A stretch of DNA of 64,000 nt, from NCBI GenBank assembly GCA_023897205.1, contig JAHWDD010000008.1, positions 2,170,001 through 2,234,000 on the forward strand, in the 5' to 3' direction. The notes beneath the pieces are model-generated. The model saw nothing but the letters and a program-made list of their open reading frames with translations, made no database searches and was not told where the DNA came from. The stretch comes from Exophiala sp. HKRS030 (taxonomy: Eukaryota; Ascomycota; Eurotiomycetes; Chaetothyriales; Herpotrichiellaceae). Of this stretch, positions 12,141 to 35,770 are shown piece by piece. Made by a program: the position numbers and the translations under genes. How positions within the stretch are numbered: the stretch's first letter is position 1; each line of letters starts with the position of its first letter.

Positions 12141-13144
12141 GCTGTGAGAGGTATATTATTGCAAGCAATGGATATCGAATCTCTCCAGACAAGAGTTGTA
12201 TCGAATAACGTCCTATTGCAAGAGGTTAGAAACTCAAGTCTGCTTCGACCCACCCTGACTGGCTGTTACTTCATGGCCCATGGCTATAGTTATGTTTTTC
12301 AGAGGCACGGGACGATTGGCAGGTTGAGCCTCTAACAGGCTTGGTGGACATGGAGATGTTTCCTAACATAGACTTTCAGGCATGTCGTGGCGGAGAAAAG
12401 ACTCCCGTGAAAGACGGGCTGGGGCCATTGTATACCCCGTGGTTTCAAAAGACGAATAATCCTGGTCAAAAGCTCTTCAGACGTTGTGAATAGAGCAGAC
12501 TGGTCGTCTCAGATGGCAAAATTTGGTACTTAAGGCCTCCCAAATAGCGATTCCACTATCTAAGGCCCCGTGGGCCCCAAAGGCGGAATTTTGGTTCCTT
12601 GGTAGCGCCGTGATCGGTGAAATTGGACTGCGATGCCAACAGTCTCCAAACAGGCCACTGCACGGTCGATCTTCATACAAAGATGTGACACTTTCATGGG
12701 TTTTTGTTCTCAATTGTGTTAGAGTACCTTGACTCGAATTCGCCGATACCAATTCTGACAGCAGAACGAGTACTGCACCTTTTTTTATCTTGTGACGTAT
12801 CATTATTGTAAGCTAGACCCAAGTCCTGGTGCGGGCCCTACCTCTGGTTTAGGTAATGCTGAACGAGAATCGGAGCTACGAGCAGACCTAACAAGTCAGC
12901 CAGGTGGTTGACAAGAACGAGGTCTTGTCTGTGTAGAGATAATATGTTTGTCATCATGTAGGACATGGCAGACAAAATCGCATGATGATTGTATTAATAG
13001 TGCATTGAGGAGTGGACCTGAAGCGCAAAGCCTCAATGCCAAGAGGGATCGGCGTTCGGAGGACTTGCTCCTAGAAGAGCATCTTAGTCATCCAATAATC
13101 CTCTACAACATATATTATCTTCCCCAAAAATTTGTCCAAAACAT
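12141..13144. other. intergenic region upstream of the pepsin-fold gene
   Basis: Should contain the promoter of the reverse-strand gene and perhaps a missed first exon with its signal peptide; I could not identify one. It runs up to the 5' end of the tRNA gene. No other gene is supported. Confidence 0.45.
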
Positions 13145-13181
13145 GGTTCTATAGTGTAGTGGTGATCACACCGGATTTTGA

Positions 13182-13205
13182 GAACCTTTATTGGCACAGA
13201 AGATC
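13182..13205 (+). other. canonical anticodon-loop tRNA intron (24 nt)
   Basis: Inserted one nucleotide 3' of the anticodon, between positions 37 and 38, where the tRNA-splicing endonuclease normally cuts in eukaryotes. Confidence 0.85.
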
Positions 13206-13227
13206 TTCCGGTAACCCCGGTTCGAAC

Positions 13228-13278
13228 GTAAGTCGGACATTAAAGATTCTGTTTCTGTGCTCGCGCTGACCATCTCAG
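13228..13278 (+). other. spliceosomal-type intron inside the tRNA T arm (51 nt)
   Basis: It starts GTAAGT, has the branch-point consensus CTGAC at 13266-13270 with the branch A nine bases before the end, a pyrimidine-rich middle, and ends CTCAG. It contains no T4 run, so Pol III would not be stopped inside it. Its ends coincide exactly with the junction of T loop and 3' T stem. Confidence 0.85.
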
Positions 13279-13300
13279 CCGGGTAGGACCTATCATAAAC

Positions 13301-13306
13301 TTTTTT
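13301..13306 (+). terminator. Pol III terminator (T6)
   Basis: A run of six T ten bases after the tRNA 3' end, as expected for RNA polymerase III termination. Its position downstream of the split 3' half argues that the whole 147-base interval is one Pol III unit. Confidence 0.85.
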
Positions 13307-33441: not shown

Positions 33442-35770
33442 ATGAGTGTTGTTGGCATAGATTTTGGTGCTCAGAGCACAAAGATTGGTGTTGCCCGGAA
33501 CAAGGGTATTGACATCGTAAGTATCTTCACGAGACCTCTTCCACCGGATGAGTTTACTGACCCTTGCAAAAGATCACAAATGAGACCTCGAATCGTCAGA
33601 CACCGTAAGTCTCCCGCTTTGCGCATCCTTGCCCCCATTAGAAGTCTCAAAATTGACAACCTTGGACAGATCTCTAGTCGGATTCGGCCCCAAGAGCAGA
33701 TATATCGGAGAAGCTGCAAAGACTCAGGAAATCTCAAACCTCAAGAACACCATCAGTTCGTTGAAGAGGCTGGCTGGCCGAACCATCAACGATCCCGAAG
33801 TCGCCATCGAACAAGAATTTATTACAGCTCCTCTGGTCGACGTCAATGGACAAATCGGTGCCGAGGTGACATATCGAGGCGAAAAGCAGAAGTTTTCTGC
33901 CGTCCAACTTATTGCTATGTATCTGGGCAAAATCAGAGATACTGCAAGCAAAGAGTTGAAGTTGCCTGTCAACGACGTCGTTATTGGAGTTCCACCTTGG
34001 TTCACCGACGTGCAGAGACGAGCCATCATTGATGCTTCCGAGATTGCCAGCCTGAAGACCCTCCGTCTGATCAACGACAATACTGCTATTGCACTCGGTT
34101 ATGGTATCACGAAATCCGATCTGCCAGAAGGTGATGCCAAGCCTCGTCGTGTTGTCTTTGTCGATGTCGGCTACAGTGACTATACTGTATCCGTTGTTGA
34201 GTTCAAGAAGGGCGAACTTGCGGTCAAAGCTACCGCCTTCGACAGACATTTGGGAGGTCGCAATTTCGACAAGGCTCTGGTCGATCATTTTGCTGCGGAG
34301 TTTAAAGAGAAGTTCAAGATTGACATTTCTACCAACGCGAAAGCAACTACTCGAGTCGCAGCCGCCGCCGAGAAAGTCAAGAAAATCTTGTCCGCCAATG
34401 CCCAGGCACCTCTCAGTATTGAATCTGTGATGGACGATAAAGATGTGCGAGCATTGCTCAAACGCGAAGAGTTTGAGGAACTCATCAAACCATACATCGA
34501 GCGGATCACCGCACCCCTCGAGCAGGCCTTGGCCGATGCCAAATTGAAAGTTGAGGATATCGATGCCATTGAAATGGTCGGTGGCTCCACTCGTGTCCCT
34601 GCCATCAAAGAACGCATTAGCAAATTTTTCGGCAAGAGTCTATCTTATACACTCAACCAAGACGAGGCCATCGCTCGAGGCTGTGCGTTCTCATGCGCAA
34701 TCCTCTCGCCTGTTTTCCGTGTCCGAGACTTCTCTGTGCACGATATTGTCACATATCCCATCGAATTCATCTGGGAGCAATCACCAGATATTCCAGATGA
34801 AGACACCAGCTTGACAGTGTTCAATAAGGGTAATGTTATGCCATCTACCAAGATCCTTACCTTTTATCGTAAACAACCCTTTGACCTCGAAGCCCGGTAT
34901 GCCAAGCCCGATCAACTACCTGGCAAGGTCAATCCTTGGATTGGGCGTTTCTCCGTCAAGGGGGTCAAGGCTGATGACAAGGATGACTTCATGGTGTGCA
35001 AACTGAAAGCCCGCCTCAACCTCCATGGTATCCTCAATGTCGAATCAGGATACTATGTCGAGGATGTTGAGGTCGAAGAGCCTGAGCCAGAAGCGAAGAA
35101 AGAGGGCGATGCCATGGACACAGATCAGGCCAACGGTTCAGCCGAAGCCAAGCCCAAGTTGCGCAAGGTCAAGAAGCAAGTTCGGAAGGGTGACTTGCAA
35201 CTCATCGCAGGCACCGCATCATTAGACGAAGGAGGAAAGAGTGCTCTGGCCGAGTTGGAACAACAGATGTTTATGGAAGACAAGCTCGTCACCGACACCG
35301 AAGACAAGAAGAACGAGCTCGAAGCATACATTTATGAATTACGAGGCAAGATCGATGATCTATATTCAGAATTTGCCAGTGACGAGGAAAAGGAGAAGAT
35401 CCGAGACAAGTTGGAAAAGACAGAGGTAAGCGCGCATTAATTCATGCAAAGTTTTGAGCATTAAACTGATGTTGTGCAGGATTGGCTCTATGATGAAGGC
35501 GACGATGCTTCCAAAGCGCAGTATGTGGCCAAATTCGATGAAATTCGATTCGTTGCGGGACCGGTCGTGCAACGATATCTTGACAAAGTAGAGGCTGAAC
35601 GCGCTGCTGCAAGAAAGGCAGAGGAAGAAGCTGCGGCCAAGAAGAAAGCCGACGCAGATGCGAAGAAGAAGGCTGAAGAAGAGGCCAAGAAGGCAGCTGA
35701 GCCCCAAGACACAGAAATGAAAGACGCGGAGGCCGAGACAGTGAAGCCTGACAGTGTGGAGGAGAAGTAA
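33442..35770 (+). CDS. SSE1: Hsp110-type Hsp70 nucleotide exchange factor (Sse1/Hsp88)
   Basis: A cytosolic Hsp110 that releases ADP from Hsp70 and holds unfolded substrates. Exons 33442-33516, 33573-33604, 33670-35425 and 35480-35770 give 717 residues, the family length. The N-terminus reads MSVVGIDFGAQSTKIGVARNKGIDI, then NETSNRQTPSLVGFG across two introns. The Hsp70 ATPase domain shows VGVPPWF-type VIGVPPWF, LRLINDNTAIALGYG and EMVGGSTRVPAI. The acidic loop in the substrate domain and the missing EEVD end are typical of Hsp110 rather than Hsp70. The last exon encodes a helical bundle and a Lys/Ala/Glu-rich tail. Introns are 54-65 nt with GTAAGT-like donors. The frame is intact throughout. 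Confidence 0.96.

Follow-up and report, generated by a model that had tools for sequence, protein, structure and literature searches.

Probable U2-type spliceosomal introns in tRNA genes of Exophiala sp. HKRS030

Analysis of a tRNA-Gln(UUG) gene of Exophiala sp. HKRS030 revealed a 51-nt insert in the T arm which, judged from its sequence, is very probably a spliceosomal intron of the U2-type GT-AG class and would be one of at least 14 such introns, distributed over 12 tRNA genes, that would be removed by the spliceosome. The gene lies in a 64,000-nt stretch of DNA that was analysed as a whole (the window, G000:C8:2170001-2234000), from a genome of 59.8 Mb in 50 contigs. Best local alignments showed Hsp88 and mannose-1-phosphate guanyltransferase to be 95% and 96% identical, respectively, to the Exophiala mesophila proteins, from which we conclude that the host is a chaetothyrialean fungus near this species.

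The tRNA-Gln(UUG) gene occupies positions 13145-13291 of the plus strand and is interrupted twice, by a 24-nt intron at the canonical position 37/38 and by the 51-nt insert. The 5' exon (13145-13181), delimited from the sequence, an ARAGORN call on the spliced gene and a stem count, comprises the acceptor 5' strand, the D arm and the anticodon 5' strand, with the anticodon TTG at 13178-13180 and the A box TAGTGTAGTGGT, a match to the A-box pattern, at 13152-13163. It is followed by the ordinary 37/38 intron (about 13182-13205; ARAGORN i(39,24) and stem count), which had gone unmentioned in the preliminary description and whose ends are uncertain by one or two bases. The middle exon (13206-13227; sequence and stem count) carries the anticodon 3' strand, the variable loop, the T stem 5' strand and the T loop TTCGAAC, which is the B-box core. 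The insert (13228-13278), located by ARAGORN, a deletion scan and comparison with other inserts, separates T-loop position 60 from T-stem position 61; it begins with a predicted 5' splice site GTAAGT (13228-13233), contains a predicted branch site CTGAC (13266-13270) with the branch A at 13269, 9 nt before the insert end, and ends with a predicted 3' splice site CAG (13276-13278), all exactly where the preliminary description had placed them. The 3' exon (13279-13291; sequence and stem count) supplies the T stem 3' strand CCGGG, the acceptor 3' strand TAGGACC and a discriminator T, and the complete gene is followed, as had been described, by a T6 run of the Pol III terminator type (13301-13306).

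Removal of the insert and the 37/38 intron yielded 20 of 21 stem pairs (acceptor 7/7, anticodon 5/5, T stem 5/5, D stem 3/4) together with the T loop TTCGAAC, which bears out the earlier claim that deleting these 51 nt restores a perfect T stem and acceptor stem. ARAGORN called no gene in the unspliced sequence and tRNA-Gln(ttg) in the spliced one, and the Rfam tRNA model scored the unspliced gene at 16.1 bits versus a cut-off of 29. When GT..AG stretches of 42-75 nt were deleted on both strands of the window, one of 16,335 deletions restored a tRNA, and this was exactly 13228-13278, whereas none of the 55,979 control deletions did so (AG..GT 0/16,040, CT..AC 0/16,335, TG..GA 0/23,604). Deletions of 20-100 nt around the gene gave an ARAGORN call in 45 of 10,704 cases, with 42 of the 45 being 49-53 nt long and starting at 13220-13231; ARAGORN alone thus locates the ends to within a few bases, and it is the perfect T stem and T loop that settle their exact position.

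A genome-wide search for GT-AG inserts in other tRNA genes, as the preliminary description had proposed, revealed at least 11 more genes, so that at least 12 tRNA genes with 14 inserts outside 37/38 were found among 60 tRNA genes read in the genome. The inserts occupy eleven sites, namely that of the window Gln(UUG) gene (60/61) and ten others in the further genes: 46/47 in two Arg(UCU) genes (L007, L041), 32/33 in Pro(AGG) (L069), 18/19 and 27/28 in two Ala(AGC) genes (L079 and L068), 26/27 in Lys(CUU) (L078), 24/25 plus 26/27 in a second Lys(CUU) gene on the minus strand (L084, G000:C10:880060-880470), 28/29 in Lys(UUU) (L103), 54/55 in Trp(CCA) (L071), 24/25 plus 55/56 in a second Trp(CCA) gene (L101), and 61/62 in Glu(CUC) (L113). 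For Trp (two genes), Lys(CUU) (two), Lys(UUU) (one), Arg(UCU) (two) and Ala(AGC) (two), all genes found are interrupted.

The total of 60 genes is made up of 42 genes over the cut-off in an Rfam tRNA family scan of the genome (63 of 1707 candidates scored), 17 pattern loci and the window Gln gene. Both Arg(UCU) genes, with their GT..AG inserts in the variable loop, were among the 42 genes of the Rfam scan; the 17 genes were added after reading of loci obtained with short D-arm patterns and one T-arm pattern, plus one place matching a B box followed by a 5' splice site. Accordingly, 10 of the 12 interrupted genes came from searches asking for neither splice site, the Gln gene being the starting finding and the Glu gene L113 coming from the B box plus 5' splice site pattern, a search that required a splice site; in L079, L084 and L101 the pattern matches ran over the first bases of the insert. 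For counting, the B box plus 5' splice site pattern was useless, as it gave fewer hits (257) than its reversed control (368); the first 100 of the 257 places were listed, 24 of these were fetched (5 + 19), and one place was the Glu gene. The other patterns gave 80, 22, 27, 26 and 10 hits, which overlap and which all were known genes or loci that were fetched and read. Among the 151 loci fetched from pattern hits (L060-L210), 17 hold a tRNA gene, and in the other 134 no tRNA was found undeleted, with any of 12,697 single GT..AG deletions or with control deletions. A query of ten fungal tRNAs matched just one gene, which was already known.

Applied to the 12 known interrupted genes, the single GT..AG deletion script returned a spanning call in 11 and missed the Trp gene L101, for which two deletions are needed; the Lys gene L084, which also needs two, gave calls of the wrong isotype. 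Inside the known interrupted genes the three sets of control deletions produced 30, 59 and 31 calls versus 59 for GT..AG, because ARAGORN tolerates long introns. In view of these control calls and misses the script is a finder and not a proof of boundaries, and wherever the tRNA fold was compatible with more than one splice boundary, GT..AG decided.

Several observations were made on individual loci. In L084 the two GT..AG inserts flank an exon of 2 nt (CG); the position of the second is that of the insert in L078, and the first lies at 24/25, as does one in the unrelated Trp gene L101. Of two Pro(AGG) genes that closely resemble each other, L069 has site 32/33 filled by a 50-nt GT..AG insert, and in L070 this site is empty. 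The Ala tRNAs (UGC, AGC) of L038, L068 and L079 have a Pro-like D arm (TGGTCTAG.GGTATGA), and G3-U70 was seen by eye in L038; possibly, these are Pro tRNAs remoulded into Ala tRNAs. An Asn(GUU)-like locus with a repetitive 37/38 intron (L045, G000:C9:88086-89145) remained under the tRNA cut-off and stands outside the 60 genes.

All 14 inserts are bounded by GT..AG and measure 48-58 nt. A G at position +5 is present in 14/14 inserts and in 7/7 protein-gene introns of the same genome, compared with 3/33 ordinary 37/38 introns. The motif CTRAY with its A 9-13 nt before the end was found in 13/14 inserts, the exception being the second insert of L084 with CTCAT; shuffled sequences gave a mean of 2.2/14, and 0 of 20,000 shuffles reached 13. 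In the 33 ordinary 37/38 introns (7-53 nt, ARAGORN-placed), GT..AG was found in 2/33, allowing slides, and CTRAY in 2/33, a control better suited to judging the ends than the branch site, since these introns are shorter. The seven protein-gene introns, which were placed by aligning Exophiala mesophila proteins under a requirement for GT..AG, have 5' sites similar to those of the inserts and CTRAY in 5/7; five lie in the window (50-65 nt), and the other two, of 106 and 118 nt, are from the C6 copy. Hsp88 of the C6 region was left out of this sample. The insert length is within the range of these introns, and the inserts combine the features of the U2 type, namely GT..AG with a 5' consensus including the +5 G, and CTRAY near the 3' end. 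Comparison of the insert cores in all pairs revealed a mean identity of 0.57 and a maximum of 0.68, with no indication that the inserts form a family of recent copies.

The C6 copy belongs to a region that is syntenic with the window parts around Hsp88 and mannose-1-phosphate guanyltransferase. The second Hsp88 copy (window 33584-35440 versus G000:C6:2033869-2035641) has a protein identity of 87%, gene order is conserved but rearranged, and the host genome looks duplicated or hybrid. At the place in the C6 region matching that of the window gene no tRNA-Gln was seen, and hence the region provides no syntenic empty site for the Gln insert.

With the inserts removed, 245 of 252 stem pairs formed over the 12 genes, and in 10 of the 12 the acceptor, anticodon and T stems were fully paired (7, 5 and 5 pairs, respectively); the T arm of the Ala gene L079 is flawed, and the Ala gene L068 has one unpaired acceptor position. 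ARAGORN called 12/12 spliced genes, nine with the expected isotype. Given the unspliced genes, it made no call for four, assigned a wrong isotype to seven and the right one to a single gene, and found none of the four genes with a T-arm insert.

It is conceivable that the interrupted tRNAs are parts of longer non-coding Pol II transcripts that are spliced in the ordinary way, with no Pol III transcription involved, and the state of the internal promoters lends some weight to this. The A and B boxes had been described as lying upstream of the Gln insert, which holds for the A box and for the B-box core GGTTCGAAC, whereas the last C positions of the B box lie beyond the insert; the unspliced gene therefore lacks the final consensus C of its B box and retains no match to GWTCRANNC. 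In both Trp genes (L071, L101) the T-loop B box is cut in two by the insert. Such damage to the B box, which is clipped in the Gln gene and divided in the two Trp genes, should make transcription by Pol III weaker. The anticodon arm of both Trp genes reads GTTCGACTCC, a full B-box match and thus a candidate B box, which lies only a few bases from the A box in L071 and which the D-arm insert of L101 moves about 60 nt away from it. Against Pol II transcription, a run of T5 or longer starts 1-42 nt downstream of 12/12 interrupted genes and none occurs inside any gene (background, 54 of 1279 50-nt tiles of the window plus strand); this fits Pol III transcription, and a Pol II transcript would not need such runs. 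The absence of T4 from the Gln insert, noted earlier, was confirmed, TTTT being present in the anticodon loop, however. Over all inserts no T4 occurs versus 3.0 expected from shuffles (P 0.033), which says little about Pol III, as the protein-gene introns are also poor in T4 (1 in 512 nt, n = 7). Taken together, transcription by Pol II alone appears improbable.

Alternatively, intron-like elements might have inserted into redundant tRNA genes that are now dead. A second Gln(UUG) gene at C10:310822-310922 has a 37/38 intron and no T-arm insert, and a DNA search of the genome showed it to match the window gene up to the exact insert point. Several intact Gln(UUG) genes had been named as grounds for regarding the window gene as a pseudogene; with one uninterrupted gene found, this argument stands by half. 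Because such a cousin exists, the window gene alone may be dispensable and, taken by itself, may be a young pseudogene. Truncated tRNA fragments also occur in the genome. L100 is a truncated Trp-like fragment whose likeness to L101 fades at the D-arm insert of the latter, and L106 is likewise truncated, an initiator-Met-like copy that lies about 3.4 kb away from L005, the intact gene; tRNA debris in this genome, as represented by these two, is truncated.

As an account of the whole set, however, death of the interrupted genes is at odds with several observations. The pattern matches listed (3-mismatch patterns, hits read) included no uninterrupted gene for Trp, Lys or Arg(UCU), and the terminator-like T runs are retained in 12/12 genes. 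Insert positions are shared by the two Arg(UCU) genes (46/47), the two Lys(CUU) genes (26/27) and, with a one-base slide in the T loop, the two Trp genes (54/55 and 55/56). Comparison of these partners showed differences in 11 of 63 stem pairs, seven of which are changed on both sides and none of which is broken; 10 of the 11 lie in the acceptor stem, the two strands of which flank every insert. Among genes without a shared position, the two Ala genes differ by two non-pairs and Lys(CUU) differs from Lys(UUU) by one. A relationship can still be recognised between the insert cores of the Lys partners (3 of 2000 shuffles reached their score) and, weakly, between those of the Arg partners (57 of 2000), and those of the Trp partners are not detectably similar (689 of 2000); the splice signals stay although the cores have drifted. 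It is thus very improbable that the interrupted genes are pseudogenes.

That the inserts are ectopic tRNA introns cut by the tRNA-splicing endonuclease via a bulge-helix-bulge, as in Cyanidioschyzon merolae, where one such intron interrupts the T loop of tRNA-Gly(CCC) at 55/56 (PMC3978253), is extremely unlikely, since the full 4-bp central helix that separates the two 3-nt bulges of this motif is missing in 14/14 inserts (0-3 of 4 pairs, exact register only scored), cleavage by the yeast endonuclease is described as strictly at 37/38 (PMC4033280), where none of the 14 inserts lies, and GT..AG, the +5 G and CTRAY are of no use to this enzyme. In the window, no match reached the Rfam gathering score; a SNORD44 match at 12917-12962 (17.3 bits versus a cut-off of 40) was weak and taken as chance. 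Group I and group II introns possess a catalytic core and are far longer than 60 nt, and a self-splicing intron of either group was ruled out by the insert length and by the Rfam result.

The preliminary description had left three readings side by side (splicing of a tRNA precursor by the spliceosome, a recent insertion, and a neatly disrupted pseudogene), of which the first is favoured by the further interrupted genes, the shared positions and the stem changes that keep pairing. For the Gln gene this would proceed as follows. Pol III apparently transcribes the gene to the downstream T run; the spliceosome would recognise GTAAGT, the branch site and CAG, excise the 51 nt and join TTCGAAC to CCGGG, whereupon the T arm and the acceptor stem, which are predicted to fold only after this removal, could form. 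The tRNA-splicing endonuclease would then cut the ordinary 37/38 intron. This enzyme needs the folded mature tRNA body, which cannot form as long as the T, D or anticodon stem is split by an insert, and the spliceosome would therefore have to act before the endonuclease. In L084, two splicing events would take place around the 2-nt exon CG, which requires stepwise removal.

Beyond the single gene, it appears fairly likely, as far as the genome sequence can tell, that tRNA maturation in the host lineage has come to require the spliceosome as one of its enzymes. Decoding of UGG, AAG, AAA and AGA would rest wholly on Pol III precursors that the spliceosome must splice before the tRNA endonuclease acts, twice in two genes, one of which has a 2-nt exon between its two inserts; introns would have been gained repeatedly at eleven cloverleaf sites, so that the tRNA genes would record spliceosomal intron gain into non-coding Pol III genes. 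To our knowledge, the spliceosome does not trim tRNAs. If the spliceosomal reading is true, two splicing pathways share a substrate and essential tRNAs depend on both, and the spliceosome can act on uncapped, short, highly structured Pol III transcripts. The 14 intron cases in tRNA genes, including the filled and empty Pro(AGG) site, offer material on intron gain. Since programs that search for tRNA genes with 37/38 introns overlook such genes or assign them the wrong type, tRNAs absent from fungal annotations may have escaped detection without having been lost.

Among known systems, nuclear tRNA introns are described as lying exclusively at 37/38 and being cut by the tRNA-splicing endonuclease (PMC3978253), and a 2026 review classes tRNA splicing as spliceosome-independent (PMC13149111). 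Ordinary 37/38 introns likewise interrupt tRNA genes, and many host genes that were read carry one too; whereas such introns are endonuclease-cut (PMC3978253), and the 33 of the host are without the spliceosomal signature of the inserts, the latter bear it. The cases of ectopic introns named in PMC3978253 are C. merolae, with a bulge-helix-bulge, and the nucleomorph of Guillardia theta. Their introns lie off 37/38 like the host inserts, sometimes several per gene in C. merolae, where the 37/38 intron is removed last; the C. merolae introns form a bulge-helix-bulge and many of those of Guillardia are without a defined motif, but a spliceosomal signature as in the host is not mentioned for either in the relevant passages of this source (PMC3978253).

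In the open-access full-text literature, mostly judged by title and abstract, no report of spliceosomal introns in tRNA genes was recognised. Some fungi have spliceosomal introns in nuclear rDNA; like the host inserts, these are mRNA-type introns in a structural RNA gene that is not made by Pol II, but they concern Pol I and not tRNA. Closest to the host inserts is the case of the fission yeast U6 snRNA gene, where an mRNA-type intron, thought to stem from reverse splicing, interrupts a short Pol III transcript as in the host tRNA genes (PMC10484740). In contrast to that case, a spliceosomal RNA with one intron near its catalytic bases, the host inserts are spread over eleven cloverleaf sites in several tRNA families. 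We conclude that, as a class of tRNA introns for which no described counterpart was found, the host inserts belong with the mRNA-type introns in RNA genes that are not transcribed by Pol II.
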